Shown here in pieces: positions 31,604-54,029 of a DNA stretch of 64,000 bases. Position 1 is the stretch's first letter. Each line of letters begins with the position of its first letter. The notes under the pieces are model-generated. The model did not search any database and was not told where the DNA came from. It saw only the letters and a program-made list of their open reading frames with translations. The translations under genes were made by a program, and so were the position numbers. The DNA comes from Haliclystus octoradiatus (taxonomy: Eukaryota; Cnidaria; Staurozoa; Stauromedusae; Haliclystidae), in contig OU744451.1 in the NCBI GenBank assembly GCA_916610825.1, positions 868,001-932,000 of the forward strand, in the 5' to 3' direction.

Positions 31604-34600
31604 GCGATTTGACAAACAGATAGAAGTTGTGACCACCTGCGCGCGCATGTGCCGTAACATATCCAAAGCGGTCAATTTGCTCTAATTGTGCGGCCAAAGC
31701 CTAACACGTAAGTTATCTTTACAAAATGGCGATCAGAAGCAGACGTAAAACGAAGGAAACCTATGACTTATATTTAGATTACACTTTATATTTCTTAATG
31801 AAAATTGAATACTTGATTACACTTCACAATAAAAAATTTACGATTAAATGGATTCAGAAAAACTTTTATTATCAAGTCAAATAGTCGACGGCATAAATCT
31901 TGATTCCTGAATGTCATGGCCTATTATTTGATTATTCTATGGTTCTAGACACACTGTAGTCGAGAATCTATATCGCTAAATAGGTAAGCACATAATAAAC
32001 TATGACTTATCTAAGTTTGAAACTGTTGACGGTATTTGATAATGCTTCAACAAACAGCAGCTCGATATTTATTCTGCAAAAACACGACAGTCGAGTTAAA
32101 CAAAGTCTAGAAACCTTCTATACGTTGGCAATAAAAACTGTCTGGTTCTTTTAAAAGCGCGCACTAATCTATCTCAAACTGGTTGCACATTTAAAATAAT
32201 TCATAAACTACTATGATTCTATGTTTGACTATAATTGCTTGACTCTTTGATAAGTTATTTAGTTTGCAAAATACGAATTATACTATACTCATGTAACTCA
32301 TTCCGCTTTGTTGACCAAAGCCATCTTTTTCTTTTTGAATTATAAGGTCTCTCAAATCAAAGCAAGATATGCCGATGACTACATATCACTCAACATGTAT
32401 CACATGCATAGACATGTATCGACGTAAATTGATAAAATTTCATGAAAAAGTATCAAGTTTATTATGTTTAGATATATAACCATCCAGGTTGACAAAGGTT
32501 TTTTTGGGGGAGGGGGGTCAAAATGCTGGTCTTTCACTTACTTCAACTTGTAGGTCTCTCCAAATAAATTGAGACATGCAGATGACTAGATATCACTAGG
32601 TAGTACTCTTAGACATGTATCGAAGTAAATTCAAAATATTTCTCTAAAAAGGATCCAGTTTATATTTAGATATAGCCGCTTAAGTTGACAAAGGGGACAT
32701 TTGGGGTTTTTCAAAAAGCTGGGCTTACACCTTCTCCAACTTCTAGGTCCCTCAAAGTGAAACAAGGGGTGCTGATGATTAAGTATCATTAGAGATTACT
32801 CTTTGACAAATATTGAAGTAGGTTCAAAACATTTTTTGACAAAATATCAAGTTTATATTCAGATTGAGCCATTCAAGTTATCAAAGGGGGCATTTGTGTC
32901 TTTTCAAAAAGCCGGATTTACACTTTTTCCAATTTCTAGGTCCCTCATATAAAAATAAGGGATGCCGATGACTAGATATCAATAGAGATTCTCTTAGACA
33001 AGTATTCAAAACATTTCTTGAAAAAATATCTATTTCATATCTAATAATAAATAAACACAAAAATCAGACATTCATATCATATCTATAGATTAAATTGCAT
33101 GATGATCGCTCAAGGCGAAACTATTAGTAGCAAATATGAATGTCTCATTTTTGCATTTATTTATTATTAAACAGCTCTGCTTTTATGGCATCAATCAATA
33201 TTAAAACAGCAATGACTACACAATCACTTTTATGTTATTATTAGTGTATATTTAGATACATCAATTTGAGGCTACCCTATGTATTTTATATCCTAAATTA
33301 ATATTTTTTCATGAAATTTGTGCTTTTTATTTAGTTAATTAATTAATGGAATTCCTAATTTATCGGCCTCTTTTTATATTATTACACGATTGTTTAATTA
33401 CAAATGTTGAACTTGACGTAGCTACATGAATAGGTATTCTGAATTATGCCTAAGTTTGATTATGGTGTCGTTATTTGAATGTAATAGATGACAGCATGTC
33501 ATATCTTTAACTTATAACGTAATGTTACTTCGGGATTGTTTTGAGAGCACTAATATTCAATCATAACGTAACACTATTTTAGAATGCTGAGCAATTAGAT
33601 AATTTAGATATTTTGCCTATATAGGTAACCTAGTTTAAAGAGCACATGACACAACAAATTTTTAACACAGATTCAAGTAGCTGAAGCTAAATGATGAAGA
33701 ATGGTGACAATGATTTCTTAGTTTGAAACTGATAAGCGGAGATATTTAATGTTGAATCTGCCCTATTTTCAATCATTTTCTATGCTTGAAATAAATATAA
33801 TTTATTAAGAAATACATGAAATACAAGGGAATTTAGTTGTTGGATTTACTTTATCTCTCAAAAAATGTGGCAGCCTCAGCAGCATGCAGTTGGACTGTGC
33901 ACCCGCTGTTTTACGTACACATCACCTCAATTTGTGACAGTAGTAAGTCAGGTGTTTGGGTGTTCTACGACGACGGAATTACTAATTTGAAATAGTTCAT
34001 TTTAATAGCAAAGATATTCATGTGTTTAGTGTTATGTTGTTTCAATGTTCTAACAATTTCATTTGTTCCTCAATGTTATAATAGTTGAACAAATATACAA
34101 ACTGTAACACAAATTAAACTCCACAGACGCTGGGTGTTGTTTACAAGTAATATCTGGTGATATCTAGTCATCGGCATCCCTCGTTTTAATTAAAGGGACC
34201 TAGAAGTTGGAGAAAGTGAAAATGCGGCTTTTGAAAAACCCCACATGCCCCCCTTGTCAACTTCATCAAAATATAAACTAGATGTTTTTTTAAGAAATGT
34301 TCTGAATTTACTTTGTTACATGTCTAAGAGTCCCATCTAGTGATATCTAGTCATCTGCCTGTCTCAATTTACTTTCAGAGACCTAGAAGCTGGAGAAAGT
34401 GTGAACCTAGCTTTTTGAATAAACCCAAATGCCCCCTTTGTCAACTTAAGTGGCTGTATCTAAATATAAACTAGATATTTTGGCAAGAAATGTTTTGAAT
34501 TTACTTCAATACGTGTCAAGGAGTAATCTCTGATGATATCTAATCATTGGCACCCCTTGTTTTAATTTGACGGACCTAGAAGCTGGAGAAAGTTTTTAAC

Positions 34601-36131
34601 CCAGCTTTTTGAAAAACCCAAAATGCACCCCTTGTCAACTTAAATGGCTCTATCTAAATATAAACTAGATATTTTGTCAAGAAATATTTTTAATTTACTT
34701 CGATACGTGTCAAGGAGTAATCTCTGATGATATCTAATCATTGTCACCCCTTGTTTTAATTTGACGGACCTAGAAGCTGGAGAAAGTGTGAACCCAGCTT
34801 TTTGAAAAACCCAAATGCCCCCCTTGTCAACTTAAATGGCTATATTTAAATATAAACTCGATCAATTTTCGAGAATTATTTTGAATTTACTTCAATACAT
34901 GTCTAGGAGTAATCTCTAATGATATCTTATCATCGGCATCCCTTGTTTTATGTTGAGAAACCTACCTAGAAGTGGGAGAAAGTGTAAACCTAGCTTTTTG
35001 AATAAACCCAAATGCCCCCTTTGTCAACTTAAGTGGCTGTATCTAAATATAAACTCAGTCGATTTTCAAGAAATATTTTGAATTGATTTTGATACATGTC
35101 TAAGAGTACTACCTAGTGATATCTAGTCATCTGCATGTCTCAATTTATTTGGAGAGACCTACAAGTTGAAGTAAGTGAAAGACCAGCATTTTGACCCCCC
35201 TCCCCCAAAAAAACCTTTGTCAACCTGGATGGTTATATATCTAAACATAATAAACTTGATACTTTTTCATGAAATTTTATCAATTTACGTCGATACATGT
35301 CTATGCATGTGATACATGTTGAGTGATATGTAGTCATCGGCATATCTTGCTTTGATTTGAGAGACCTTATAATTCAAAAAGAAAAAGATGGCTTTGAGAC
35401 TTTGTCAACAAAACGGAATGAGTTACATGAGTATAGTATAATTCGTATTTTGCAAACTAAATAACTTATCAAAGAGTCAAGCAATTATAGTCAAACTTAG
35501 AATCATAGTAGTTTATGAATTATTTTAAATGTGCAACCAGTTTGAGATAGATTAGTGCGCGCTTTTAGAAGAACCAGACAGTTTTTATTGCCAACGTAGG
35601 CCTATCGAAGGTTTTCTAGACTTTGTTGAACTCGACTGTCGTGTTTTTGCAAAATCAATATCGAGCTGCTCTTTGTTGAAGCATTATCAAATACTGCCAA
35701 CAGTTTCAAACTTAGATAAGTCATAGTTTATTATGTGCTTACCTTTTTAGCGATGTAGATTCTCGACTACAGTGTGTCTAGAACCATAGAAAAATCAAAT
35801 AATAGGCCATGACATTCAGAAATTAAGATTTATGCCGTCGACTATTTGACGAAATTGACTTGATAATAAAAGTTTTTCTGAATCCATTTAATCGTAAATT
35901 TTTTATTGTGAAGCGTAATCAAGTATTCAATTTTCATTAAGAAATATAAAGTGTAATCTAAATATAAGTCATAGGTTTCCTTCGTTTTACGTCTGCTTCT
36001 GATCGCCATTTTGTAAAGATAACTTACGTGTTAGGCTTTGGCCGCACAATTAAAGCAAATTGACCGCTTTGGATATGTTACGGCACATGCGCGCGCAGGT
36101 GGTCACAACTTCTATCTGTTTGTCAAATCGC
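31604..36131. mobile_element. Foldback/Mutator-like element with long inverted repeats
   Basis: A 4528-bp insertion in CYS2 intron 2, flanked by a perfect 9-bp duplication CTCCCGGAT (31595-31603 and 36132-36140). It starts GCGATTTGACAAACAGATAG and ends with the reverse complement. The inverted arms are long (about 1.4-2.0 kb). Their outer 740-800 bp are near-identical; the inner parts are tandem repeats of about 190-240 bp (landmark GTCAACTTAAGTGGC and its complement), with about three units in the left arm (32340-33010) and six in the right (34140-35370). The middle (33010-34130) is AT-rich with no transposase. A 9-bp duplication and repeat-built long arms fit foldback elements and Mutator-like transposons. 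It is non-autonomous. Confidence 0.88.
33094..33135 (+). ncRNA. Degenerate hammerhead ribozyme
   Basis: Inside the foldback element: stem I TTGC/GCAA, core ATGATGA (canonical CTGATGA, so C3 is A), stem II CGC/GCG around TCAAG, then GAAAC and stem III ACT-ATT-AGT, with A before the expected cut (33129/33130). Loss of C3 should abolish cleavage. The flanks TAATAATAAATAAA and TTTATTTATTATTA form an outer inverted repeat. Confidence 0.6.
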
Positions 36132-36407
36132 CTCCCGGATTTCGATGCATTGTAAATATATGCTGCTATGCTTGAGCTGAGTGTTTTGCTCAATAACATG
36201 TCGATGCATTAGCTGCCGTTGCTTTATCATGTTTAGTAATCGTTATTACTGTATTAGATAATTAATATTATTGGTTTTTAGAACACAAGTTCCAGTGTAT
36301 AATTCTTGCATCAAAGCCGTTACCAGGCTTGTGTTAAAGATGGAAACGAATCTTTGAAATTGGAAATTAGCCACAATACAACTAGCCAAGCATCAAATTT
36401 CACCAAG

Positions 36408-36949
36408 GTTAGTACAACTCGTTGTATCATTTGAGACTAGTGGTTAGGGCTTATGTAGATGGGATACTCAAATATTAGAGGGTATACCTTTTCAACTTTG
36501 AGAAGAAAAAATATATAGGGTATGTTGTTTTAAGGGTAATATGTCATTTTTGAAAAATTATTTGGGTATCTTTTTCATGATCTCAAACGCTTTTAATGTC
36601 ATCTTCACAAACCTGGAGAACAACCCCATCGCAGCACAATGCAATTTACCCCCCGGGGGTCAATGCTTTCGACCTCAACCTTCAGAGGTTATGTGGCCCT
36701 GGCAGAAGCACTAATGGTTGGCGTTAGGAAAAGAGAATCCGGCCATAAAATGCACAAACGCTTTTCTTTAATACATAACCACTTGAACATCAATCAGCCA
36801 GCCCGGTTTGTTTATAAATGACAAATACCAAACTAAACTAAAATACTCCTAAATTAGATCCAAAAAGAAATGTAGCACACATAGCCAACACGGAAATAGG
36901 ATGAAGTGTTAACGGTGGGGTCGGAGGTGCACGCCGCACATGTAGAGTC
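36408..36949. other. CYS2 intron 3, start
   Basis: AT-rich intron sequence followed, from about 36700, by a decayed SINE. Nothing else is recognised. Confidence 0.4.
36705..36836 (+). mobile_element. Decayed SINE fragment
   Basis: TGGTTGGCGTTAGGAAAAGA, ATCCGGCCATAAAATGCAC and GCCCGGTTTGTTTATAAATG match the middle and 3' end of the SINE at 28112 with several changes. The tRNA head is barely recognisable. Confidence 0.65.
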
Positions 36950-37830
36950 AAGAAAGACACACCATTTTTGCTGTTACTTGAAGTTTCACGTTGTTAAACG
37001 ATCATCAGACAGAATACAATTAAAAACATACATACATAAAACCTAGTTAAACATATTTAATAGCAGTGCTTATTGTTATTTATTGTAATGGTTTCTATTG
37101 TTAATATTTAATCTATTGTTATTACATTTCCGTATGCTTGGTCACGTTTTGGATGTTTTGAAATTGGAAAGGTAAAATTTGTTTTCATGGCGGCATTTGG
37201 ATATTAGTTCTGATCTTTTGTTGATTAAGGTTTCTTTTGAGCAAATTATATTATATTTTTCAGCCAGGCAGAGAAAACAACGCTTTGATTTATTACTGTA
37301 TGCAGCAGCCTTGCATAAGATTGACCATTCAATCTGGTAGGACAGCTTGTTGTCTTTGGCTTGCCAAATGTATTTTGAAAGTTGGGTGTTCAATTCATAA
37401 TTTCTGTTTCTGAAAGACAGCATATGCTTTGTGTAGCGATCCTTGAAGCTACCTTCAGTCAGTCCGATGTAATTTTTGACGCAGTCATCTTCAGTTGTCA
37501 CCTTTGCTATGTAGACCACGCTTTCTGTTTGGCATTTATTTTGTAGTGGGCACGTTGGTTTTGATCTGCAGTTGCATTGTTTTGTATTTTGTTTGTCGGC
37601 CTTTGGTTCACTTGTTACTTTTCTGTTATGGTTTTTTATTATTCTTTCCATATTGCTGGTACAGCTGTAGCTGACTTTAATATTATTTTGGTTAAAAATT
37701 TTTCGATACTGGTGTTCTTTTGGGAAGTGTTTATTTAGTAGTTTCAGAAAGATGCGGCCTATGTTTGTTTTGACGCTTTTATTAAACGGCGGGTTGAACC
37801 AAATTATATTTCGTTGCCTCGTTGCCTCAT
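36950..37830 (-). pseudogene. 5'-truncated Penelope-like element, minus copy
   Basis: The minus strand starts in the last part of the reverse transcriptase (RNIIWFNPPFNKSVKTNIGR, KVSYSC) and continues into a GIY-YIG endonuclease: linker CNCRSKPTCPLQNKC, VVYIAKV, KNYIGLTEGSFKDRYTKH and LSKYIW, ending in KRSELISKCRHENKFYLSN and a stop at 37142. The 3' UTR carries a hammerhead ribozyme. PLE proteins combine an RT with this nicking endonuclease for target-primed insertion. Nearly all of the RT is missing, so the copy cannot move alone. It is head-to-head with an almost identical plus copy. Confidence 0.93.
36970..37013 (-). ncRNA. Hammerhead ribozyme (PLE minus copy)
   Basis: On the minus strand: stem I TCTGT/ACAG, core CTGATGA, stem II CGTT-TAAC-AACG, GAAAC, stem III ACT-TCA-AGT, cut after GTA. 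The core is intact. Identical to the plus copy at 38624. Confidence 0.88.
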
Positions 37831-37849
37831 TGCCTCATTGAGAAGCATT

Positions 37850-38776
37850 GAGAATAAGCGGCCATGAGTCGCACTTGCATTTCAATCAGCGCCAAATGAC
37901 AAATAACAACAGGAGAAAAAGGCAACGAAATATAATTTGGTTCAACCCGCCGTTTAATAAAAGCGTCAAAACATACATAGGCCGCATCTTTCTGAAACTA
38001 CTAAATAAACACTTCCCAAAGGCCGACCACAAAAGGCCGACAAACAAAATACAAAACAATGCAACTGCAGATCAAAACCAACGTGCCCACTACAAAATAA
38101 ATGCCAAACAGAAAGCGTGGTCCACATAGCAAAGGTGACAACTGAAGATGACTGCGTCAAAAATTACATCGGACTGACTGAAGGTAGCTTCAAGGATCGC
38201 TACACAAAGCATATGCTGTCTTTCAGAAACAGAAATTATGAATTGAGCACCCAACTTTCAAAATACATTTGGCAAGCCAAAGACAACAAGCTGTCCTACC
38301 AGATTGAATGGTCAATCTTATGCAAGGCTGCTGCATACAGTAATAAATCAAAGCGTTGTTTTCTCTGCCTGGCTGAAAAATATAATATAATTTGCTCAAA
38401 AGAAACCTTAATCAACAAAAGATCAGAACTAATATCCAAATGCCGCCATGAAAACAAATTTTACCTTTCCAATTTCAAAACATCCAAAACGTGACCAAGC
38501 ATACGGAAATGTAATAAATAATAGATTAAATATTAACAATAGAAACCATTACAATAAATAACAATAAGCACTGCTATTAAATATGTTTAACTAGGTTTTA
38601 TGTATGTATGTTTTTAATTGTATTCTGTCTGATGATCGTTTAACAACGTGAAACTTCAAGTAACAGCAAAAATGGTGTGTCTTTCTTGACTCTATTATTA
38701 TTTACCGCTCTGCTATTTACAAGCATTGAGCACTGTTCACCTGCCAATACTTTTAAATTTTTATTAAATTTGAAAC

Positions 38777-38818
<42 letters not shown>
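37850..38818 (+). pseudogene. 5'-truncated Penelope-like element, plus copy
   Basis: Inverted partner of the minus copy. The frame from about 37918 reads RNIIWFNPPFNKSVKTYIGR, then breaks near 38022 where about 60 bp are lost (CCCAAAGGCCGACCACAAAA). The endonuclease resumes as VVHIAKV (tyrosine to histidine in the first motif) and KNYIGLTEGSFKDRYTKH, and runs to a stop at 38494. The 3' end includes a hammerhead and continues through GAGCACTGTT to an (AT)n tract near 38780-38815. The head-to-head junction is GCCTCATTGCCTCATTGAG near 37820-37845. Confidence 0.92.
38624..38667 (+). ncRNA. Hammerhead ribozyme (PLE plus copy), sense in CYS2 intron 3
   Basis: Stem I TCTGT (38624-38628) with ACAG (38663-38666), core CTGATGA (38629-38635), stem II CGTT/AACG with loop TAAC, GAA at 38650-38652, stem III ACT-TCA-AGT, A at 38662. 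Predicted cut 38662/38663. All catalytic core positions are intact. Confidence 0.9.
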
Positions 38819-38820
<2 letters not shown>

Positions 38821-40010
38821 TAGGCGTAGGAGCTGGGGGGGCAGGGGGGCATTTGCCCCCCCAAACGCATTTGAGAAAAAAATTCGGGCAATTTTTCGGG
38901 CAAATCAACAAATTACAAATCTTTTGTGGTACAGTGAAAGTGTTCAGGAAATTTATTGTGTATTAATAAAATTCAACACTTCACAAAAACAGTTTTATGA
39001 ACAGGAGTATACTATGCATTGTAAGCCTACTGGCAAGCTTTCTTCTTATCATGTTCCAATCTAATATTCATAATTTTATGCAATAATTATGGTTGCTATA
39101 TCGCTTAATTATTTTGAAGACTCCACCCCCATTTGTTTTGCAATATAAAAAATCCAGAACTCATCGACACGCTTTATATATTAACGTCTGAAAAGATTAA
39201 GACCGTGATGACATGAGAAATGTAACATTGACCCAAATGTGTAAGTGGAAATTTTTAGGTCAATTTTCGGGCAGATCAAGCTATTTCTTATATCTCTTTG
39301 CTAAATGAAATTATTCAGTCGTTCAATATTTCGCAGGTTATACGTAACGTTGTCCTGAAAAATATCAGTAAACAATAATCCAAATTTTCTTGCTCGCTCT
39401 GCTCGCAACAATTCTTCGCATCAGATCATATAGGGATTAGTGAAGCAGATCACTATTTGCCATAAAATAGGCTTGTCTCGCACTTTCAAATTAAATACAT
39501 AACCCAGTGCTGCATATGACAGTGTATTTTACGGTGCCTAAAATACACTGCTATATGCAGCAAAATATTCTGCTCTAAGGTGTCTAAACATTCTCAGGAA
39601 ATAAAAGTAAATACCTAAATAGGATGACCTATATGACGAGCGAGGTATGACTAAAACGTTCTTTATAACGATCCACTACAGGGAGAAATGAACGTTATTA
39701 TTTACACCGTAAAGCTAAGTTGCAGGAGGAATGGAATAGCTGATAACGGCTTTTTGAATTCAGTAAAAAATGATATAATCATATATAATTGCTTAAAATG
39801 AATGTAAAATGAATATGTTTCAATATTTAATGACGGTATTAAAAAATTTGTGGGGCTGAAGGAGGCCTGTGATGTTTGTGTTTCTATCCTGTGATACATC
39901 TTCTGCAATTTTGCATGTGAGTTACCTCTTATAACAACATTTCCCGGAAAAAATTTTTCGGGCAAAACCATTTTTGCCCCCCTGGTTGGAAATGTGCCCC
40001 TACGCCTATG
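38819..40010. mobile_element. DNA transposon-like insertion with CATAGGCGTAGG ends
   Basis: A 1192-bp unit starting CATAGGCGTAGGAGC and ending CCCCTACGCCTATG. The outer ends are inverted repeats, followed inside by G-rich GGGGGGGCAGGGGGGC against CCCCCC near the far end, and by repeated TTCGGGCAA words at both ends. It is inserted in an (AT)n tract, so any TA-type duplication is hidden. No transposase is readable (one 89-codon frame on the minus strand has no motif). Superfamily not assigned. Confidence 0.75.
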
Positions 40011-40043
40011 TATATATATAAAATAAGAAAAGAGACGTTTTCT

Positions 40044-40083
40044 CCGTTACTCGAAGTTTCGCGCTGTAGCGCTCCTCAGACGG
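40044..40083 (-). ncRNA. Hammerhead ribozyme, left arm
   Basis: Minus strand: stem I CCGT/ACGG, core CTGAGGA, perfect stem II GCGC-TACA-GCGC, GAAAC, stem III ACT-TCG-AGT, A before the cut. Intact. Confidence 0.9.
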
Positions 40084-40107
40084 TTTTATTCATATCGATA
40101 AATAAAA

Positions 40108-40147
40108 CCGTCTGAGGAGCGCTACAGCGCGAAACTTCGAGTAACGG
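40108..40147 (+). ncRNA. Hammerhead ribozyme, right arm, sense in CYS2 intron 3
   Basis: Stem I CCGT (40108-40111) with ACGG (40144-40147), core CTGAGGA (40112-40118), stem II GCGC/GCGC, GAA at 40131, predicted cut 40143/40144. Intact; mirror image of the motif at 40044. Confidence 0.9.
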
Positions 40148-40258
40148 AGAAAACGTCTCTTTTCTTATTTTATATCTATACAGCTCTGCTTACCGGTATT
40201 GAGCACTATATTGATGTTTTGCTCTTAATAAATAAATTTATTTATTTACTAAATCAAC

Positions 40259-40303
<45 letters not shown>

Positions 40304-40330
40304 AAGAAGTCAAAGACTACACATTTTGAT

Positions 40331-40373
40331 ACTGTTACTTAAAGTTTCACGCTTTATGCGATCCTCAGACAGT
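40331..40373 (-). ncRNA. Hammerhead ribozyme, array minus unit 1
   Basis: Minus strand: stem I ACTGT/ACAGT, core CTGAGGA, stem II CGC-ATAAA-GCG, GAAAC, stem III ACT-TTA-AGT, A before the cut. Intact. Confidence 0.9.
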
Positions 40374-40595
40374 TAAAACTAATCAATAAAATACATTATA
40401 CCTCATAATTAAACTTACAAAACGCGGCTATTGTTAAATAATATAAAGGCTATTGTTTTGTTAGATGCGATAATTCTTTGTAGTTATTTCCTATGCGGTA
40501 GTTAGTTATTACAGATTATGTTTTAGTGGATTTATAATTAGAAAAATAAAATTTATTTTCATGCCTACACTTAGAGATTAATTCTGATTTTTTAT

Positions 40596-40850
40596 TTAAT
40601 CTAGTTCGAATTTCTCCAATTCACTAATTTGTGGCGGGCAATTTCTTGATTTAAATCCAAGGTTTGCATCGGTTGTATTACTGATATCGTTGGTCTCCTC
40701 TGTTTCTTCCTTTTGGAAGAAAAACGCTTTCCATCGCATTCGTTTGATTACGCTTTCAATTTTCGCAATTAGCTGCATTAAATAAGTCTTCCTAGGAGGT
40801 ATTGGTATGTTTTTAATTGAATAGTCAAATGTGATTCTTTCCATGGTCAT
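40596..40850 (-). pseudogene. PLE N-terminal remnant, array minus unit 1
   Basis: 84 codons starting MTMERITFDYSIKNIPIPPR, then LIAKIESVIKRMRWKAFFF, an acidic linker, GFKSRNCPP and ISELEKFELD with a stop. The RKxYL..VIKRMRWKA pattern is the conserved start of PLE reverse-transcriptase proteins. The deletion joins it out of frame to KKSELISKCRHENKFYFSN, the PLE C-terminus. Residue 12 is I here and M in the other units. Confidence 0.8.
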
Positions 40851-40995
40851 TTCTGCAGTAAGATTATAGTGCTCTACTAGAGATCCAGGAGCTAATAATA
40901 GTATTAGATATTATCTAATAGCAGTAAAACAGTGCTCAATGTCAGTTGACAGAGCTGTAAATATAATAAAGAAGTCAAAGACTACACATTTTGAT

Positions 40996-41038
40996 ACTGT
41001 TACTTAAAGTTTCACGCTTTATGCGATCCTCAGACAGT
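40996..41038 (-). ncRNA. Hammerhead ribozyme, array minus unit 2
   Basis: Same sequence as unit 1, exactly 665 bp further. Intact core. Confidence 0.9.
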
Positions 41039-41260
41039 TAAAACTAATCAATAAAATACATTATACCTCATAATTAAACTTACAAAACGCGGCTATTGTT
41101 AAATAATATAAAGGCTATTGTTTTGTTAGATGCGATAATTCTTTGTAGTTATTTCCTATGCGGTAGTTAGTTATTACAGATTATGTTTTAGTGGATTTAT
41201 AATTAGAAAAATAAAATTTATTTTCATGCCTACACTTAGAGATTAATTCTGATTTTTTAT

Positions 41261-41515
41261 TTAATCTAGTTCGAATTTCTCCAATTCACTAATTTGTGGC
41301 GGGCAATTTCTTGATTTAAATCCAAGGTTTGCATCGGTTGTATTACTGATATCGTTGGTCTCCTCTGTTTCTTCCTTTTGGAAGAAAAACGCTTTCCATC
41401 GCATTCGTTTGATTACGCTTTCTATTTTCGCAATTAGCTGCATTAAATAAGTCTTCCTAGGAGGTATTGGTATGTTTTTCATTGAATAGTCAAATGTGAT
41501 TCTTTCCATGGTCAT
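41261..41515 (-). pseudogene. PLE N-terminal remnant, array minus unit 2
   Basis: Same 84-codon frame as the unit-1 remnant, with SMKNIP in place of SIKNIP. No catalytic part. Confidence 0.8.
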
Positions 41516-41660
41516 TTCTGCAGTAAGATTATAGTGCTCTACTAGAGATCCAGGAGCTAATAATAGTATTAGATATTATCTAATAGCAGTAAAACAGTGC
41601 TCAATGTCAGTTGACAGAGCTGTAAATATAATAAAGAAGTCAAAGACTACACATTTTGAT

Positions 41661-41703
41661 ACTGTTACTTAAAGTTTCACGCTTTATGCGATCCTCAGAC
41701 AGT
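41661..41703 (-). ncRNA. Hammerhead ribozyme, array minus unit 3
   Basis: Third copy at the 665-bp spacing. Intact core. Confidence 0.9.
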
Positions 41704-41925
41704 TAAAACTAATCAATAAAATACATTATACCTCATAATTAAACTTACAAAACGCGGCTATTGTTAAATAATATAAAGGCTATTGTTTTGTTAGATGCGA
41801 TAATTCTTTGTAGTTATTTCCTATGCGGTAGTTAGTTATTACAGATTATGTTTTAGTGGATTTATAATTAGAAAAATAAAATTTATTTTCATGCCTACAC
41901 TTAGAGATTAATTCTGATTTTTTAT

Positions 41926-42180
41926 TTAATCTAGTTCGAATTTCTCCAATTCACTAATTTGTGGCGGGCAATTTCTTGATTTAAATCCAAGGTTTGCATC
42001 GGTTGTATTACTGATATCGTTGGTCTCCTCTGTTTCTTCCTTTTGGAAGAAAAACGCTTTCCATCGCATTCGTTTGATTACGCTTTCTATTTTCGCAATT
42101 AGCTGCATTAAATAAGTCTTCCTAGGAGGTATTGGTATGTTTTTCATTGAATAGTCAAATGTGATTCTTTCCATGGTCAT
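41926..42180 (-). pseudogene. PLE N-terminal remnant, array minus unit 3
   Basis: Protein identical to that of unit 2. Confidence 0.8.
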
Positions 42181-42325
42181 TTCTGCAGTAAGATTATAGT
42201 GCTCTACTAGAGATCCAGGAGCTAATAATAGTATTAGATATTATCTAATAGCAGTAAAACAGTGCTCAATGTCAGTTGACAGAGCTGTAAATATAATAAA
42301 GAAGTCAAAGACTACACATTTTGAT

Positions 42326-42368
42326 ACTGTTACTTAAAGTTTCACGCTTTATGCGATCCTCAGACAGT
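42326..42368 (-). ncRNA. Hammerhead ribozyme, truncated minus unit 4
   Basis: Fourth copy. Its unit is cut off at 42426 by the inversion junction, so it has no coding remnant behind it. Confidence 0.9.
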
Positions 42369-42532
42369 TAAAACTAATCAATAAAATACATTATACCTCA
42401 TAATTAAACTTACAAAACGCGGCTACAAAGAATTATCGCATCTAACAAAACAATAGCCTTTATATTATTTAACAATAGCCGCGTTTTGTAAGTTTAATTA
42501 TGAGGTATAATGTATTTTATTGATTAGTTTTA

Positions 42533-42575
42533 ACTGTCTGAGGATCGCATAAAGCGTGAAACTTTAAGTAACAGT
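42533..42575 (+). ncRNA. Hammerhead ribozyme, first plus unit, sense in CYS2 intron 3
   Basis: ACTGT (42533-42537), CTGAGGA, stem II CGC/GCG, GAAAC, ACT-TTA-AGT, A at 42570, ACAGT (42571-42575). Predicted cut 42570/42571. Confidence 0.9.
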
Positions 42576-42720
42576 ATCAAAATGTGTAGTCTTTGACTTC
42601 TTTATTATATTTACAGCTCTGTCAACTGACATTGAGCACTGTTTTACTGCTATTAGATAATATCTAATACTATTATTAGCTCCTGGATCTCTAGTAGAGC
42701 ACTATAATCTTACTGCAGAA

Positions 42721-42975
42721 ATGACCATGGAAAGAATCACATTTGACTATTCAATGAAAAACATACCAATACCTCCTAGGAAGACTTATTTAATGCAGCT
42801 AATTGCGAAAATAGAAAGCGTAATCAAACGAATGCGATGGAAAGCGTTTTTCTTCCAAAAGGAAGAAACAGAGGAGACCAACGATATCAGTAATACAACC
42901 GATGCAAACCTTGGATTTAAATCAAGAAATTGCCCGCCACAAATTAGTGAATTGGAGAAATTCGAACTAGATTAA
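42721..42975 (+). pseudogene. PLE N-terminal remnant, plus unit 1
   Basis: Protein identical to those of minus units 2 and 3. The ATG lies 145 bp after the upstream ribozyme, so a ribozyme-cleaved RNA would carry it near its 5' end. Confidence 0.8.
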
Positions 42976-43197
42976 ATAAAAAATCAGAATTAATCTCTAA
43001 GTGTAGGCATGAAAATAAATTTTATTTTTCTAATTATAAATCCACTAAAACATAATCTGTAATAACTAACTACCGCATAGGAAATAACTACAAAGAATTA
43101 TCGCATCTAACAAAACAATAGCCTTTATATTATTTAACAATAGCCGCGTTTTGTAAGTTTAATTATGAGGTATAATGTATTTTATTGATTAGTTTTA

Positions 43198-43240
43198 ACT
43201 GTCTGAGGATCGCATAAAGCGTGAAACTTTAAGTAACAGT
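43198..43240 (+). ncRNA. Hammerhead ribozyme, plus unit 2, sense in CYS2 intron 3
   Basis: Identical motif at +665 bp. Predicted cut 43235/43236. Confidence 0.9.
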
Positions 43241-43385
43241 ATCAAAATGTGTAGTCTTTGACTTCTTTATTATATTTACAGCTCTGTCAACTGACATTGA
43301 GCACTGTTTTACTGCTATTAGATAATATCTAATACTATTATTAGCTCCTGGATCTCTAGTAGAGCACTACAATCTTACTGCAGAA

Positions 43386-43640
43386 ATGACCATGGAAAGA
43401 ATCACATTTGACTATTCAATGAAAAACATACCAATACCTCCTAGGAAGACTTATTTAATGCAGCTAATTGCAAAAATAGAAAGCGTAATCAAACGAATGC
43501 GATGGAAAGCGTTTTTCTTCCAAAAGGAAGAAACAGAGGAGACCAACGATATCAGTAATACAACCGATGCAAACCTTGGATTTAAATCAAGAAATTGCCC
43601 GCCACAAATTAGTGAATTGGAGAAATTCGAACTAGATTAA
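43386..43640 (+). pseudogene. PLE N-terminal remnant, plus unit 2
   Basis: Same protein, with a synonymous change (ATTGCAAAA versus ATTGCGAAA in plus unit 1). Confidence 0.8.
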
Positions 43641-43862
43641 ATAAAAAATCAGAATTAATCTCTAAGTGTAGGCATGAAAATAAATTTTATTTTTCTAATT
43701 ATAAATCCACTAAAACATAATCTGTAATAACTAACTACCGCATAGGAAATAACTACAAAGAATTATCGCATCTAACAAAACAATAGCCTTTATATTATTT
43801 AACAATAGCCGCGTTTTGTAAGTTTAATTATGAGGTATAATGTATTTTATTGATTAGTTTTA

Positions 43863-43905
43863 ACTGTCTGAGGATCGCATAAAGCGTGAAACTTTAAGTA
43901 ACAGT
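43863..43905 (+). ncRNA. Hammerhead ribozyme, last plus unit, sense in CYS2 intron 3
   Basis: Identical motif. The unit ends about 100 bp later in (TA)n at about 44003-44022. Predicted cut 43900/43901. Confidence 0.9.
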
Positions 43906-44003
43906 ATCAAAATGTGTAGTCTTTGACTTCTTTATTATATTTACAGCTCTGTCAACTGACATTGAGCACTGTTTTACTGCTATTAGATAATATCTAATAC
44001 TAT

Positions 44004-44611
44004 ATATATATATATATATATATTTAGTCGAAATCGACTAGGGTACTATATTCGATGAGCTGCATTCTGATTGGCTGCTCAATCGTTTACTATATTTTCT
44101 CATAGTCAACGCTGGCAAGTTCCCTCACAAATTTCAAAAAGTAAACAAGGGTTCGCAAATGTTTTTAAATCAAAATTTTATACGAATTACGGGAGTAAAT
44201 TATAATTTCCGTCCTTGAGAAAACAAAACAAGTAACAAAATCTGAGATGAAGTTGCAACATGTTCAATGGCCCTTGCCCAATGGCCCAATGGTCAATGGC
44301 AACTCGCCTTTATTGTCTACCGTCTTGAATAGTCAACTCAGCGGCCTCGGTGACTATTCGACAGTAGACAACTCGGGCTCCTTGTCTAATTGTTAAATAG
44401 TACATGGATGGAAATTTATTGGGGCTGAGAGAAGTTAGTTGACTTGGTCAGTGCAGACGTGATATGTATATGAACGTTTTACAATAAACCTTACAATTGT
44501 GCGTAGGGAGTAAAATAATCCCGACGCTGGAAATAAGTCCATGATACATAGAGATTAGTTAGATAATATTGATAGTATTGATATCAGCCCTTATCATTTT
44601 TTTATCATCAG
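44004..44611. other. End of CYS2 intron 3
   Basis: A (TA)n tract to about 44022, then unassigned sequence. Around 44270-44385 the words GTCAATGGCAACTC, GAATAGTCAACTC and GACTATTCGACAG suggest a decayed inverted repeat. No gene is seen before exon 4 at 44612. Confidence 0.4.
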
Positions 44612-45525
44612 AAATTTTGTGATGACGGTGGGTACTCGGATGCATTGGTTGCAACTATTAAGGATCGGTGTCATTCAAATTTCGGTGCCAAATACATGCT
44701 CTGCACTAAAGGGTTTAAAAAAATGTTCAAAGACAATCAAACGGATGTGAAGCTTTGCGAGTGAGTAAAATATGTCACATGATGTTATTAATCATTACTG
44801 AATTATAGATTTTTGTAATGTGATGAACAAAAGAATCGTACACGACTTGGAAAACTGAATATAGAAGTTTACAAGTTTAACTTACGCCAAACGTTCCTTG
44901 GACGTCCGTTGAAGTTTACTGGGAGTTTATTGAACGCTTAAATCAACTCTATTGTTGTAGAGATGAACTGCATAACGTTTCTGTAAACCATTGCCAAACA
45001 GAATAAAGGCTATCTGCAAATCATATCCTCGACAAAGACTTGCTACTGCCTCTTTCTGTGGGTATGCCATATTTCTATGTTGTGGACTTTGTAAAGATTA
45101 AAAGCATGAAAAGCAGTAACTCATTTTCTAAATCAAAGTCATATATAGTTATATTCCATATGTAAATAAAATGCAACCGTGAAATTCCTACATGAATCGA
45201 GGACGGCAAATATGCACAACGTGATGAATATATATATAATTTCCTTTGCCGTAGAGAATACAAGAAAGCCACGGAATGCATTGTTGAGCTGATGACAACT
45301 AATTGTGAGGGTGATGTCGCCAAGGAAACAATGGAATTAACGAAAAGATTCAACACAAACGCTGTCAATCCATTCTGTACTACTAGTGAAGGAGGGGCTG
45401 ATACGGATGCCATTTTAGCAGGCAGACTCCTATCGCCCCCGCCAAGTGGAGCAAGCACCGTTATCCTTCCCAAATTCCTTGGTTCTTTGCTAGCCTTTGT
45501 TGTTATGATGTGTATGATTTTATAA

Positions 45526-46715
45526 TCAGCAAATGCAATACAGAAGAACATGAAACTTGGAATCTAGTCTGATCATGCCACACGTCACTCTGAGCAGTAT
45601 ACTTATGTTACCAAGGCTATACCTAGACCATCAGTATAAGGCCTATACCTAGACCATGAGTCCAAGACCTATACAACAAGACACCTCTGGAGACAATTAT
45701 TATAGCTTCATCAATTATTTAATAAATAATATATCAATATACTTTTATTACAGGCTATAATATTGATTGCAGTTGATTAGAATATCATATGCCTCTATAT
45801 TGACATTTTATCAACTACCAAATGAATTTGTATGAGTATGGTATAATATGAACGAATCCTTATTAGGAGATGTAGAGTAAATTAACTAGTTACGATTTGA
45901 TTTTGATCAAACAATAAGCGCTAGCAATTGTTATGTTTCTGAAATATTCCCTTGCATCAAATTAATGATCAATAATAACCGAGGTATAATGGAGCATGTT
46001 TGTAATAGTCAAACAAGCTCAGTACAAAATGGGGAACTACTGCTAAGAAATATAGTAAAGTAATCTAATAGGCAAATTCCTGTCTCCTTGAGGATTTACT
46101 TGATCTCACAAAACAAGAATTCCCATCACGTGACAGGATCTAATCTAGTTGGTCTTTATCGTTTTGACCAATAGAAGACAACATGTGGTTTGTTTTCACA
46201 GCCGTCGCTAGAAATGTTGTTAATTGAGGGAGGACATAGAGGAGAATTTGCCGATAAAATAAAATTATTTAGATTGTATTTTGTTGATTTTAAGTGACTT
46301 TAAAATGTACCGAGGAAAGTAGTCATATATTCAGTTGGCGGCAAGTGACAATAATAAACTAAAAAGGTTTTGGGAAAGCTTTTGCTGTTATTAGAAATGA
46401 GCGTACAAATCTTATCCCGAACCTTACTAACGAGCGAGGAAGTAAGATTTTCAAGTAAGGTCTGCGAGCAGGATAGGACTTCTCTAGCTGTTGGTAACTG
46501 CTGATTATCGGCTCTAATTGTATCCATAGTAACATTGGAGACTAATCAGAGTGTTGTTGATTGCATGCTGAGAGAAATCAATTTCACATTTTGACGTTTG
46601 TTTGGGAAATCCAACGAAAGGCAAATCAAAACAGAGCTATCATTTCCGCATTGGGTTTATTCGGAAAAGGCGACATAATTCTACAACTGAGACATATCCA
46701 ATTGTCTGATAGAAA
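45526..46715. other. Intergenic between CYS2 and CYS3
   Basis: A short tandem motif (CTATACCTAGACCAT.., about 30 bp) repeats near 45610-45680. No gene is recognised. The last 100 bp presumably include the CYS3 promoter; no clear TATA box is seen. Confidence 0.4.
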
Positions 46716-49586
46716 ATGGCCTCTTCTCAATTTCTCTTTGTACAAGGTGAGTGTATGTCGACATTTTGTTTGATGAAACATAATTTACATGACAAATGAT
46801 CGAATATACCATGACAGGGTGTACATTATTTTGTTGTGTGGCTCGCATCATCTGCTCGTAATAGAAATCAAATGTAAAAGAATGAATCAGTAGATAAATT
46901 AATCATAAAAACGCATAAAATGATTAATTAATATAGAAGGGATGCGAATGCCTTGAGACATCAAGAACGCCAAATAGGACCTACTTCAATAACGGACTCC
47001 AAATGATCCCAATAATAATAAGACGGATAACTCATGACACAGATTAGAATTATACAGTAATTCACTCGGGACATTTGATTATTAAATCGATTTTTCAAAA
47101 ATACCCAGTTCTACCTCTTCATACCCCCGCCCTCTATCGTTCATGAATTACCCTCTTCCCTTCGCCTTGGCCTCCGTGGTACCCAACTCACTCCATTGTA
47201 TTTAGAGGACAATCCATAAAATACGAACGCAGTAAATGTTCCAATATTTGACACCCCCTCGCACTATATGCACCTGCTGCACGCTTCTAGATTATCCCCT
47301 TCAGCGATATCCCCTGGGGGTGACCCCACAGGAAGTTTTAAATTTACTTGCAAATTATGTCAATCAGAAACCCTATAAATGATGTTGTTTATTTTATCGG
47401 TGTCATATAAGCTATAATTTATTCCCAACACAAAATGTTTGTGTAAAGATCATAGCTGTAGATATGTAATTAGAAATGATCGCAGCTCCTATTTAACGAC
47501 TTTAGATTTATGCTTCAAATTCTCATTCGCAAATTTCAGTTCTTTGCAGTGCTCTACTTCTGACCTCTCGTTGTAACAGCCTCGAATCCAATCCAAAAGG
47601 TGAGACAAGAAATCAAAGGGCGATCATTCCGCCTCCGTCGTCGAGCAAAGTCGGCGATTGTACTTCTGAAATATTCAAATACAATGAAGTATCATGTGGC
47701 TTGTTGCTTTATAAACCTTACAGAAGTGAATCAAAATCTACAAATACATGCAGGTAGCCTCTATATATATATATATATTTATATTAGATATTATCTAATA
47801 GCAAAAAATAGTGCTCGATATCATTTGACAGAGCTAAATATAATAAAAGGAGTCAAAGACTGCACATTCATAATTGTTACTAATAGTTTCATGCTTACGC
47901 AATCATCAGACAAATAATCGAAATATTTAGTATATTTTGTCTGATGATTGCGTAAGCATGAAACTATTAGTAACGATTATGAATGTGTAGTCTTTGACTC
48001 CTTTTATTATTAATATATTTATATAATGAATCTATTATTTGTTTAGCTGCCTGCTTAAGTAATAGGAGAAAACAATTTAGTTATGGTAATAAATCTGACG
48101 GCCGAAGATAATTACCTTGATATACCCTGACAGTGATCTTTCTAGATTACACGAGAAAAGGATGTCAAAAGATTATGAGAATCCAAACACTGATTTTTCT
48201 TTGAATTATGAATGATATGTTAGTCGTTGTGGTCATTTATCTACCTATCCTTAGAATTTGACAGAGGATATCTTAAAATGGTATAATTCCACAGTTTATT
48301 AATAATTAAATTATGCGGGATAATCTTTAGAGTCTTTCTTAGACATTTTTTTCACATTTTATATTAAAATAATGAAATAATTGATAATCATTTTTGTTCA
48401 CAGAGATCAAATTCCCTCCTATTTTGACTGCACGCGTGCTCTGTATCGAAAATGCATCGCTAACGAACGATTGGCTGATTTTAGCAGCAAAATGAACGAA
48501 GACAGCCTGATGACGACTAACTTTACAGAGGTTAGATTTGTTGTTATCGGATTCCTATTATCCTAAGATGTGATCCGATTATCATGGCTTGCCTTCTTTG
48601 TGTTTATAGACTTCTTGTGATAGTGGCGGCTATCCTGATCATGTGCCTTCTGAAACACAAGGGTTCTGCAACGTCACAGAATTCAAAACAGAATATTTGA
48701 AATGTATTCGAGATTTCCGCGTTCTATTTGCAAAGGATCATGGGGATGCAAGACTTTGTTTGTAAGTGTATTTTATGATTAGTTCAAATGATCTTATCTC
48801 CCAACAAATGCAAATCAATTTAGTACTGAATGCATGTATGTATGTTTGTCGTATATTTGTCGTATATTTGTCCTATAAATTTAACAGGCAAATACAGGTA
48901 GCAATTAGCTATACACTAACATGACAGCTTCAGTTAGAGGTATAATTTACAGAATAAGGCTACATTTTCAAGTGAAAATTGGAATGAGTAGACATATGGA
49001 GCTGATACAACTTCGTCATTAAAACTATTTGAATTATGCGTCGAATAATAAAAAGTATTTGTGGCAATCAATTGATCATTCAACTCTACTTAGCTGTTGA
49101 CTATGTTACTTCCGACTACGAAGGACGTAATCGGAATGTTTTTAAATAAAAAATGTTTCAGGCAGAAGGTCAACAGCACGGTTGAGGATCTTAAATACTA
49201 CGACAATGTCATTAAATATCCGCCCATACTCTAGCATTCAACGATTGTACATATTGATATTCTTTTTTTACCAATATTTTGTTCGTAGACCCATTAATTT
49301 TGTTTTTTAAATTTTTAGTGAATACGGCAAAGTGACAAACTGCGTTATCTCTGCCATGCATTCTCACTGTAGTGGTAAAGCAATTGATGAAAGTGTAGAA
49401 TTATCAAAGAGATTCAACGTCAATAGAATCAATCCGTTCTGCGCAAGAAGCCAAGGGGGAGCAGATGTTGATGTTATTTTAGCAGGGAAATTGTTAGACC
49501 CAGCTGATAGTGGGGCTAGTGTACCCTTGATATCTATGTTAACAATTAGCCTCTTAATGATGTTTGTGATGGCATATTTGTATTAA
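46716..49586 (+). CDS. CYS3: intact 12-cysteine, GPI-anchored protein of an unrecognised family
   Basis: Five exons with GT-AG borders: 46716-46746, 47540-47753, 48404-48530, 48610-48761, 49319-49586; 792 nt, 263 codons plus stop, in frame throughout. The start MASSQFLFVQ and exon 2 VLCSALLLTSRC form a signal peptide split by a phase-1 intron. A basic/proline linker (IIPPPSSSK) follows. Exon 2 gives three cysteines, exon 3 two (DCTRALYRKC), exon 4 four (SCDSGGYPDH.. to ARLC) and exon 5 three, with KRFNVNRINPFC. The C-terminus has small residues (DSGAS) then a hydrophobic 20-residue end, as in GPI-anchored proteins, so the mature form should sit on the outer cell surface. I do not recognise the domain; nematode-type 12-cysteine domains have a similar cysteine count but I cannot equate them. 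Exon structure matches CYS1 and CYS2, so the genes are tandem duplicates. Intron 2 carries hammerhead motifs. Confidence 0.85.
47873..47915 (-). ncRNA. Hammerhead ribozyme, antisense to CYS3
   Basis: Minus strand: stem I TTGT/ACAA, core CTGATGA, stem II TGC-GTAA-GCA, GAAAC, stem III ACT-ATT-AGT, A before the cut. Intact. Confidence 0.88.
47937..47976 (+). ncRNA. Hammerhead ribozyme, sense in CYS3 intron 2
   Basis: TTGT (47937-47940), CTGATGA (47941-47947), stem II TGC/GCA, GAA at 47960, stem III ACT-ATT-AGT, A at 47972; ACGA follows. Stem I has one G-U pair. Predicted cut 47972/47973. Confidence 0.85.
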
Positions 49587-50095: not shown

Positions 50096-50745
<650 letters not shown>

Positions 50746-50999: not shown

Positions 51000-51114
51000 A
51001 ATTTCAGACCGACCATTAGTGGTATTTTGGAACGAGAATTACAGGTGATACCTTTCCACATTTGGTAAATTGCTCTTAAACAGCAGCGTCCTACGTAAGA
51101 TTTGTTGAAAGGGC
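51000..51114 (+). pseudogene. GGH: Truncated GGH2-like first exon
   Basis: TTTCAGACCGACCATTAGTG.. through TTTGTTGAAAGGGCTG matches GGH2 codons for FRPIIGILEQRITGD to VKFVESA (about 54110-54220), with small indels and stops. The ATG and signal peptide are gone, and the copy breaks off at 51114, where the upstream region of GGH1 begins. It shows that copy 1 once had the same two-first-exon arrangement as copy 2. Confidence 0.8.
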
Positions 51115-51274
51115 TGAAAAATATGAATCTACGGGTCCTGGGGTTGCGTGTGTGTCTTTGCGTGCACTCAAGCGAATAAAGCGCGTAATTATTCGATTGT
51201 GCAAATCCTCGATAATATCAAAGAATTTCAAAATGTATTTTATTATATTTGAGAAATTGAGATCAAACAAAATC

Positions 51275-52779
51275 ATGGACTTCACATTAAAACTGTTAAT
51301 TTATATTATATTGATTCATTGTTGCTTTAGTAAAAGTACAGTGAAAAAGAAGGTAGTTCCTCAGTTAAGGAATGATCGTCCAATCATTGGAATTGTTGCC
51401 CAACAAATTGATGATGGATTAAAAGGGTATAAAGATCGGGCATACATCGCAGCTTCTTACGTGAAATTTATTGAAAGCGCTGGTGGTAGAGCTGTACCGA
51501 TATTTACAAATCACACCGAGAAAGAAATCGGTGTAATTTTCAATTCTATAAATGCCGTTCTATTTCCTGGTGGAGGCGCACCGTTATTAAAATCTGGTTA
51601 TTACAAAACTGCGAAATTGTTGTATAATCTGGCAATAGAGGCCAATAAGAAAGGAGACTACTTCGCCATTTGGGGCACGTGTCTTGGATTCCAAACATTG
51701 CATGCAATCCGATTCGGTGGCGATTCTATTATCGAAAGAACGGATACCGTTGATTTGAGTTTAAAATTGGATTTTGCGAAAGATTTTCAGAAAAGTAGAT
51801 TATTCGAACATGCACCAGAACATATCATTGATATTTTGAAAAACGAAGAAATTACATACAACCATCATAAGCATTCCATTCAACCTATACAGTATAAAAA
51901 ACATAAACGTCTGGGTGATTTCTTTAGAATTATAAGTACAAATAAAGATAGGAAAGGCGTGGAGTTTGTTTCGACGACAGAAGGTTTGTATATTAACATA
52001 AATAAACTGATACAGAGTATACAGAGAGTACTGGGGGTCCGCTAAGGATGCATTTTTAACTGTTTGGCCGTGATTGACTATGATTGCGCAAACAGAAATC
52101 TTCACGCATGATTCTCATTTTGACCCACCAGATGTCTCTGTAGTCAGCAGTCGATGCTCTTTCGATTACAGTATCATGCCTCTCCATTTTCAACGGACAT
52201 CAAAATCATGCACTATTGTGTATAAGCTTCGTCGGCATTATAAATGACATCTGTATCAATTCTTCCTTATATCAAACCACTTCAAACGGAGGTCAACCTC
52301 GCATTATTTTCATCAGCACAAACTTGTGTCGGCTCCCACTTTCTACTGTTTGAATATTCAATATGTGACCGTGATAACATAGACCTGTGCCACATGCCCC
52401 TGTTCTTCACACGACCTGCGGCTGCTGCGTATAGGCGAGCGCGGGTACGTAGCGGAATAGTGGGCCTTGTGGAGCTAGGCTAGTGATAACAGAGTAACCA
52501 TTTTATTTTGGTTTGATTTTAGCTATTGATTATCCATTCTACGGCGTTCAATGGCATCCAGAAAAGAACCCTTACGAATGGACAACTTCAGAACAAATCA
52601 ACCACTCACCAGACGCAATAAGTACTGCGCAATACACCGCTAACTTCTTTTTATCAGAAGCAAGAAAAAATAATCATAAATTTGCAAGCGTTGAAGATGA
52701 AGCCAATAGTTTAATTTATAACTACTGCCCATACCTCACAATTGGAATTACTTATTTTGAAGAATTTTACGCATTTTAA
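51275..52779 (+). CDS. GGH: GGH1: gamma-glutamyl hydrolase
   Basis: Two exons, 51275-51983 and 52523-52779, joining in frame (g|ct, Ala 237) to 321 aa; human GGH is 318. It cleaves gamma-glutamyl tails from folate polyglutamates and works in lysosomes or outside the cell. Signal peptide MDFTLKLLIYIILIHCCFS, then RPIIGIVAQQ, a FPGG turn and the nucleophile Cys136 in WGTCLGFQ. HHK at about 209-211 holds the histidine equivalent to human His171, and exon 2 gives YGVQWHPEK with His248 and Glu250 of the class I glutamine amidotransferase-like triad. The end EARKNNHKF..SLIYNY is typical of GGH. The start is chosen because MDF begins the signal peptide and aligns with GGH3. AATAAA lies at 52920. It looks functional. 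Confidence 0.93.
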
Positions 52780-53209: not shown

Positions 53210-53217
53210 CTGGTGGC

Positions 53218-53931: not shown

Positions 53932-53939
53932 TATATAAA
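53932..53939 (+). promoter_or_regulatory. Probable TATA box of GGH2
   Basis: TATATAAA 91 bp before the GGH2 ATG, in CACATATATAAACAAACGCA. Confidence 0.6.
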
Positions 53940-54029
53940 CAAACGCAGACAGCAGATCTGATAGCAACCAGCTACGAAAAGAAGATAATCGACAACAACG
54001 TATACTCAATTTAAAAAAGGATCTACTAC

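Follow-up and report, generated by a model that had tools for sequence, protein, structure and literature searches.

Introduction

Insertions of Penelope-like elements (PLEs) were described by Arkhipova et al. as carrying inverted pseudo-long terminal repeats (pseudo-LTRs) and, optionally, a tail at one of the ends; in the part of that work drawn on here self-priming was favoured (PMC3846280). Frangieh et al., working in vitro, identified two adjacent start sites with both strands being extended, found hammerhead ribozyme mutations to be without effect on insertion and, in the sections of the report used here, gave no reads ending at the cut (PMC11167929). Cleavage by dimers of PLE hammerheads had already been reported (cited in PMC6466107), and PLEs were named by Cervera and de la Pena as strong candidates for moving retrozymes (PMC7229834). 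Both the mode of PLE insertion and the reason why PLEs carry hammerheads are open questions in the field. The stretch considered here comprises 64,000 nucleotides of the staurozoan Haliclystus octoradiatus (assembly GCA_916610825.1, contig OU744451.1, positions 868,001 to 932,000), referred to as the window, which carries hammerhead-bearing PLE insertions in head-to-head arrangement. The genome contains over 1,700 exact copies of the motif, and many head-to-head pairs would have recorded the insertion reaction. While hammerheads in PLEs were already known, three features are new here: head-to-head pairs which end at one short (S) and one long (L) site, a cluster of insertion ends at the predicted cut and arrays of deleted PLEs.

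Head-to-head pairs end at two different sites

The inserts A, B, C and D of the window are inverted pairs with a hammerhead in each arm, pointing outward, and insert E is an older head-to-head pair with a motif in the right arm alone. Two end sites were distinguished: (i) S, about 40 nt after the cut, and (ii) L, about 95-135 nt after the cut, whereby the L ends of inserts A, B and E are not precisely placed. The placed inserts are:

40293..44003: insert C, head-to-head palindrome of 665-bp tandem units, left end S, right end L
47784..48012: insert D, 229-bp head-to-head pair, left end L, right end S
47773..47783, plus strand: left copy of the 11-bp target site duplication ATATATTTATA
48013..48023, plus strand: right copy of the 11-bp target site duplication of insert D
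from near 33043, right end unplaced beyond 33170: insert E, diverged head-to-head pair

The arms of A to D match each other for ~32-40 nt past the cut, whereupon one stops and the other keeps a tail shared with the interior of the C unit. For the long arms, none of 2,000 shuffles reached the score of this tail match; for the short arms it was reached by a fraction of 0.03 to 1.0 of the shuffles, 0.03 being the value of the AT-rich flank of insert D.

The same asymmetry was followed through the genome (262 Mb, 33 contigs, the one genome covered). Neighbouring opposite-strand hammerheads of one family on contigs C1-C6 served as the source, taking the first ~100 positions of each list, and 50 head-to-head pairs were fetched with some listed pairs left out (family D 15, B 20, F 11, G 2, C 1, H 1); the family F sample consists of the 10 most closely spaced of 21 listed pairs plus one from the list of strict-pattern matches. 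End classes were set by alignment to arms of the same family, by a tail-motif rule and by inspection, so that the assignment is partly one by inspection. Of the 44 pairs classifiable at both ends, 42 were S/L, two were L/L (L204 and L233) and none was S/S. With the tail-motif rule alone, the 44 pairs (L203 included among the S/L ones) give 39 S/L, three S/S and two L/L. Two of these S/S calls, L194 and L205, have a long tail by alignment, and in the third, L208, the long tail sits on the outermost unit of a 94-bp array, with a 14-bp duplication bracketing the whole insert; L215, at first unclear, was classed as S/L on the basis of its alignment. Family C was followed separately: the BLAST end points of its 44 terminal rows are bimodal (21 at 38-43 and 23 at 93-110), all 13 of its pairs are S/L (insert C of the window included, one superseded older row dropped), and its other 17 terminal rows have no partner within 10 kb. 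Read from the arm sequences, the rule thus holds in six hammerhead families sampled outside the window, with G and H being candidate PLE families. It is not stated in the listed abstracts on PLE tails, inverted ends or hammerheads, full texts being covered for the cited papers alone.

This asymmetry speaks for reverse transcription that starts at both DNA ends rather than for self-priming. Self-priming, as proposed for rotifer Penelope elements (PMC3846280, in the part used here), would mean that a single cDNA (or antisense copy) turns back on itself, its copying then yielding a hairpin, and palindromic centres and short homologies do exist: insert C is joined through 3 bp of shared letters near 42423-42425 (read from the sequence), and the pairs L218 and L232 have identical 24-bp centres. 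Since fold-back should yield equal outer tails, a rule by which 42 of 44 pairs differ at two fixed sites is not expected from it. Insert C is moreover asymmetric, with four hammerheads in its left arm and three in its right, so that the left arm cannot be a copy of the right one, barring a later change in unit number. An origin of the pairs by self-priming is as a consequence held to be improbable.

Likewise, the palindromes and arrays could be artefacts of assembly or products of recombination, as long near-perfect palindromes are difficult to assemble. Against this stand the differences of the arms in both tail and unit number, the bracketing of whole pairs by target duplications and the flanks of the inserts. 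Of 100 flanks, 80 were long enough to be compared (few of them from family F), and although 52 similar flank pairs between loci were found, no two loci of one family were alike on both flanks among these 80, as judged by eye, wherefore most of these pairs represent separate events. The artefact explanation is accordingly regarded as very improbable.

Several points weigh against reverse transcription from two ends at S and L. Next to the two L/L pairs, six of the 50 fetched pairs were unusable: an internal pseudo-LTR is present on one side of L198, L217 and L220, the arm of L203 is cut at 13 nt, and in L199 and L223 the left arm passes S before a nested insertion interrupts it. The latter two may be L/L, in which case S/L would amount to 42 of 46 pairs (p 3e-9, as for all S/L p values assuming independent events and equal odds). 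Arms for which the two automatic rules were discordant (in L194, L203, L205, L208 and L215) were settled by alignment or by eye. A test for flanking repeats, carried out together with a (TA)n count on the 38 D, B and F pairs then counted as S/L (L220 and L223 were later set aside), failed to separate true pairs (31/38) from mismatched ones (69/114), and it is not decisive because the targets are (TA)n. Within the window, insert E gives a weak tail match (long arm p 0.01, short arm p 0.13), and the short (left) end of insert A lies ~9 nt before the usual S. Finally, in the in vitro system, as described in the sections used here, no difference in start site was seen between strands, so that a rule of S plus L is not predicted by it (PMC11167929).

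Upstream arm ends and the predicted cut

The opposite ends of the arms, which meet at the centre of each pair, fall into two classes. Where the centres are short, the arms of family D end 11-14 nt upstream of GTCTGA (15/20) and those of family B 12-17 nt upstream of it (15/20). Of 80 D-type pairs, found by a search which restricts the centre to 10-40 nt, 50 were listed and 39 of these have a recognisable upstream match, with 60 of their 78 arms ending at 7-14 nt. Arm ends ~8-14 nt upstream of the hammerhead probably reflect run-off at the 5' end of uncut PLE RNA.

In the second class the arms lack the hammerhead. A downstream anchor identified 32 such pairs, 25 after removal of seven near-identical ones, and the cut-site count was confined to family D arms, for which intact copies give the bases at the cut. 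Of the 29 family D ends that fall between -12 and +8 relative to the scissile bond, seven lie exactly at it (p 3e-4) and 16 within 1 nt (p 3e-7), each compared with a uniform distribution. A narrower two-sided search gave 12 pairs, some of them already among those above, in which nine of 24 arms end at 0-1 nt and 17 at 0-4 nt. These ends would alternatively be explained by stalling of the reverse transcriptase at the folded hammerhead rather than by cleaved RNA. Structured RNA can stop reverse transcriptases, so that pausing could mimic the cluster; the ends of the narrower search are spread, mostly over 0-7 nt, and one-sided junctions (11 matches, two of them identical) are spread as well, without a sharp peak at the cut, both of which favour stalling. 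On the other side, the ends in question sit at the scissile bond, past the downstream strand of stem I which at that point was already copied, and in family D more than half of the arms do so to within 1 nt. Stalling is thus a possible but doubtful explanation. It is suggested with moderate confidence that in the germ line the hammerhead cleaves PLE RNA, which in its cut form can still serve as template, and the cluster is possibly a genomic footprint of this cleavage. The ribozyme may hence cut templates in living cells.

Proposed insertion mechanism

The suggested scheme assumes that PLE RNA starts ~8-14 nt upstream of the hammerhead, with S and L located downstream of the cut; in family C both sites lie upstream of the ATG of the recognisable PLE N-terminus. 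Upon insertion, the target would be cut on both strands, whereby one DNA end would prime cDNA synthesis at S and the other at L. Both cDNAs would then extend upstream to the end of the RNA, being either its original 5' end or the hammerhead cut, and may run further up if the template is multimeric or if the start lies in the 3' pseudo-LTR. Finally, the two cDNAs would be joined head-to-head via short homology or filler. Internally deleted elements which keep hammerhead, S and L would be expected to insert likewise, giving rise to tandem arrays. PLE identity, S/L asymmetry, 5'-end clusters, some of the target duplications and the array structure are read from the sequence; two-ended priming, the RNA 5' end, cleavage in vivo and circular or multimeric templates are what we infer. 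As a whole, the two-ended insertion scheme for hammerhead PLEs is considered likely. That PLE integration is an asymmetric two-ended reaction which uses S and L starts and both cut and uncut RNA as templates leans towards the probable side.

If true, a two-ended reaction would explain why PLEs have inverted pseudo-LTRs and, optionally, a tail, and elements reduced to little beyond hammerhead, S and L would become retrozyme-like arrays. The rule is of use in that it separates two-ended priming from self-priming and comes with a predicted RNA 5' end.

The hammerhead motifs

The initial annotation had claimed 13 intact hammerheads and a decayed one at 33094. A type I hammerhead descriptor (CTGANGA, stem II of at least 3 bp, GAA, stem III, H17 and stem I of at least 3 bp) recovered exactly these 13 with agreeing strands and no others in the 64 kb, the chance level being a mean of 0.04 and a maximum of one per shuffled window (100 dinucleotide-preserving shuffles); in the motif at 33094, C3 is replaced by A. 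The first 13 rows below come from the descriptor scan, the last from reading the sequence.

36975..37008, minus strand: hammerhead A- (H17 to C3)
38629..38662, plus strand: hammerhead A+
40048..40079, minus strand: hammerhead B-
40112..40143, plus strand: hammerhead B+
40336..40368, minus strand: hammerhead C1-
41001..41033, minus strand: hammerhead C2-
41666..41698, minus strand: hammerhead C3-
42331..42363, minus strand: hammerhead C4-
42538..42570, plus strand: hammerhead C5+
43203..43235, plus strand: hammerhead C6+
43868..43900, plus strand: hammerhead C7+
47878..47909, minus strand: hammerhead D-
47941..47972, plus strand: hammerhead D+
33099..33129, plus strand: decayed hammerhead E (C3 = A; stem II disturbed)

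All 13 motifs have the conserved core (C3UGANGA9, G12AA14, H17) and three stems, the ends lying in stem I. They are not independent, belonging to families A (two), B (two), C (seven) and D (two) in four insertions. The initial annotation lacks the head-to-head arrangement of these insertions, their two end sites and the placement of the seven C motifs in tandem copies of a deleted PLE. The covariation which had been claimed for stem II was borne out by an alignment of five sequences (A, B, C and both D arms), in which 50 of 50 pair cells are standard and four of ten pairs are changed on both sides; stem III is invariant in it, so that compensatory change is seen for stems I and II alone. Covariation across the window families supports the pairing and, with few families, falls short of proof. 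The ACUnnnAGU segment can self-pair with one mismatch, as loop III positions 1 and 3 are pairable in all four window families and also in five of seven distinct loops of the fetched loci, which is suggestive of hammerheads acting as dimers.

As to the surroundings of the inserts, the decayed insert E adjoins a large inverted repeat (89%) at 32000-35726 with ~194-bp tandem repeats, possibly a fold-back DNA transposon. Between inserts A and B lies a ~1.2-kb segment (38817-39990) with inverted ends acataggcgtagg, recognised by eye, which is probably another mobile element.

As a check, the initial annotation had proposed a search with the Rfam covariance model and named the lack of hits above threshold as an outcome speaking against the motifs; this is the outcome which was obtained. 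The whole window matched no Rfam family at the gathering threshold, 25 matches at E up to 10 in 32000-49000 included no hammerhead (they are mostly microRNA models at the palindromes B and D, some elsewhere), and three single motif sites gave no hammerhead match either. Genome-wide, the top RF00163 score was 30.9 bits with a cut-off of 34 (73 scored among 24,130 first-look candidates), none of the eight matches listed falls in the window, and the same search gave sub-threshold matches in 11 of 14 control genomes. The miss is tentatively read as insensitivity of the Rfam models to a stem III of 3 bp. A strict hammerhead pattern found 824 + 898 exact matches in the genome (1,722) and none with the reversed pattern as control, and exact cores number 343 for family D, 153 for B and 308 for F, the latter not occurring in the window. 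In viral contigs the strict pattern had no match; in bacterial contigs it had five, all without stems, and among at least 125 listed matches to the bare core plus stem III in viral and bacterial DNA none had both stem I and stem II of 3 bp. The identity as minimal type I hammerheads is thus supported by core, stems, covariation and the genomic matches.

It may be objected that the hammerheads are passive relics which never cleave. Apart from the missing Rfam match, this is favoured by the Anolis PLE, whose hammerhead, according to the sections of the report used here, needs protein to cleave, inserts normally in vitro when mutated and gives no RNA reads at the cut (PMC11167929). It is opposed by stems which vary with pairing kept, a stem II of at least 3 bp being present in 14 of 23 distinct segments where shuffling leads one to expect 2.6, and by the insertion ends gathering at the predicted cut; the relic explanation is considered unlikely. 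Conservation leads us to infer selection for cleavage, which would act on the replicating lineage and not on the window copies, because the motif at 33094 has decayed and transcripts spanning the B or D pair are predicted to form strong hairpins (-165 and -143 kcal/mol at 25 C, as compared with about -10 and -2 kcal/mol for the hammerhead folds of B and D).

Penelope-like element identity

Insert A carries the C-terminal GIY-YIG endonuclease characteristic of PLEs, with a C-terminal open frame in each of its arms:

37142..37834, minus strand: PLE C-terminal open frame with GIY-YIG endonuclease fold (insert A, left arm)
38009..38494, plus strand: PLE C-terminal open frame, inverted second copy (insert A, right arm)

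Foldseek by itself was weak here (best E 0.2), and a second look with VIA was clear for a PLE endonuclease. Family C carries both N- and C-termini of a PLE, and copies of B and D elsewhere in the genome read into PLE N-termini, so that the earlier assignment of the hammerheads to PLEs of four families stands. Also found were pseudo-LTRs, arranged in tandem or inverted and with one of the ends tailed, as well as short target duplications in AT-rich targets, most of these duplications being (TA)n and hence not decisive. Seven parent loci were inspected, of which five have open frames of at least 607 aa, with reverse transcriptase-like motifs recognised by eye. Pfam and NCBIfam did not recognise the PLE fragments of the window and gave scattered matches for 40 relatives (RVT_1 in one of them); they found no reverse transcriptase domain in the 607-aa parent frame, which counts as a point against the overall explanation, and a PDB sequence search with the parent frame returned nothing useful. 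Taken together, the sequences indicate that several PLE subfamilies carry minimal type I hammerheads in their pseudo-LTRs and that these are the motifs described above. A search for PLE relatives in viral contigs gave 84 pattern matches, none of which was confirmed.

Tandem arrays of deleted elements

Insert C is built of the following units:

40336..41000, minus strand: 665-bp unit (internally deleted PLE)
41001..41665, minus strand: 665-bp unit
41666..42330, minus strand: 665-bp unit
42571..43235, plus strand: 665-bp unit, predicted cut to next predicted cut
43236..43900, plus strand: 665-bp unit
42721..42972, plus strand: PLE N-terminal frame of 84 codons within the unit; a PLE C-terminal remnant comes after it in a different frame

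By their frames, these units are internally deleted PLEs. A family F array with 352-bp spacing (L244, C2:13912557-13916566) comprises five motifs on the minus strand followed by seven on the plus strand, and in the 801 bases read each unit has a hammerhead and a PLE start of ~30 codons, translated by eye; its sequence identifies it as a second array of an internally deleted PLE. The 94-bp arrays appear to be analogous: the family D unit in L208 reaches from the probable RNA 5' end to S and includes 10 nt of filler, and the same spacing recurs at C2:34664446-34664951 and C2:34904417-34904640. All arrays would be compatible with a multimeric or circular RNA as template, or else with amplification at the DNA level later on. 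Since they hold both hammerheads and remnants of PLE coding sequence (in C PLE ends as well), the arrays may be taken to support a link between PLEs and retrozymes.

Other features of the window

Satellite arrays occupy the start of the window, with a 205/206-bp family in blocks at 1-10766 and a 202-bp family at 11078-13356. Broken retroelement pieces lie on the minus strand at 21413-26912, including a frame (21877-22800) which matches RNase H and integrase zinc-binding domains. A perfect (TTA)97 microsatellite at 50096-50386 is followed by four similar open frames in series (51080-59417), the first matching Peptidase C26 (gamma-glutamyl hydrolase-like), which probably form a local gene family.

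Comparison with known systems

Minimal type I hammerheads of PLEs were reportedly described by Cervera and de la Pena in 2014 and by Lunse, Weinberg and Breaker in 2017. The motifs reported here have in common with them the core, the type I topology, the very short stem III, the location in pseudo-LTRs and tandem copies which could act as dimers, and differ in that stem III is ACU/AGU with a 3-nt loop, which is partly imposed by the search pattern, and in that stem II closes with U-U in several families.

With the Penelope elements of Adineta vaga and Drosophila virilis, the insertions share head-to-head inverted pseudo-LTRs, an optional tail at one end, short target duplications and AT-rich targets, whereas the tail is ~55-97 bp long here and 31 bp in the rotifer example; the S/L ends are not predicted by the published self-priming model as far as the part of that paper used here sets it out (PMC3846280). 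The Poseidon PLE of Anolis (PAc) likewise has two nearby internal starts, cutting and extension of both strands and a hammerhead at the border of pseudo-LTR and open reading frame (ORF). According to the sections used here, PAc starts 111-118 bp inside the ORF, whereas S and L of family C lie upstream of the N-terminal ATG, and the insertions of Haliclystus differ further in that most take one S and one L (PMC11167929).

Metazoan retrozymes, as characterised in the part of the literature used here, are non-autonomous AT-rich tandem repeats with one type I hammerhead per unit, as are the arrays described above (PMC7229834). Non-coding tandem units of ~170-400 nt, the range reported for animal retrozymes, were not found among these arrays: remnants of PLE coding sequence persist in the units of 665 and 352 bp, the array of 665-bp units also having the PLE ends S and L, and the family D units are shorter (94 bp). 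The hammerheads are furthermore minimal. Abundant circular RNA is another mark of metazoan retrozymes, and the arrays are described here from DNA sequence. With these differences considered, internally deleted arrays support the idea of PLEs as movers of animal retrozymes, and an origin of retrozymes from PLEs is suggested.

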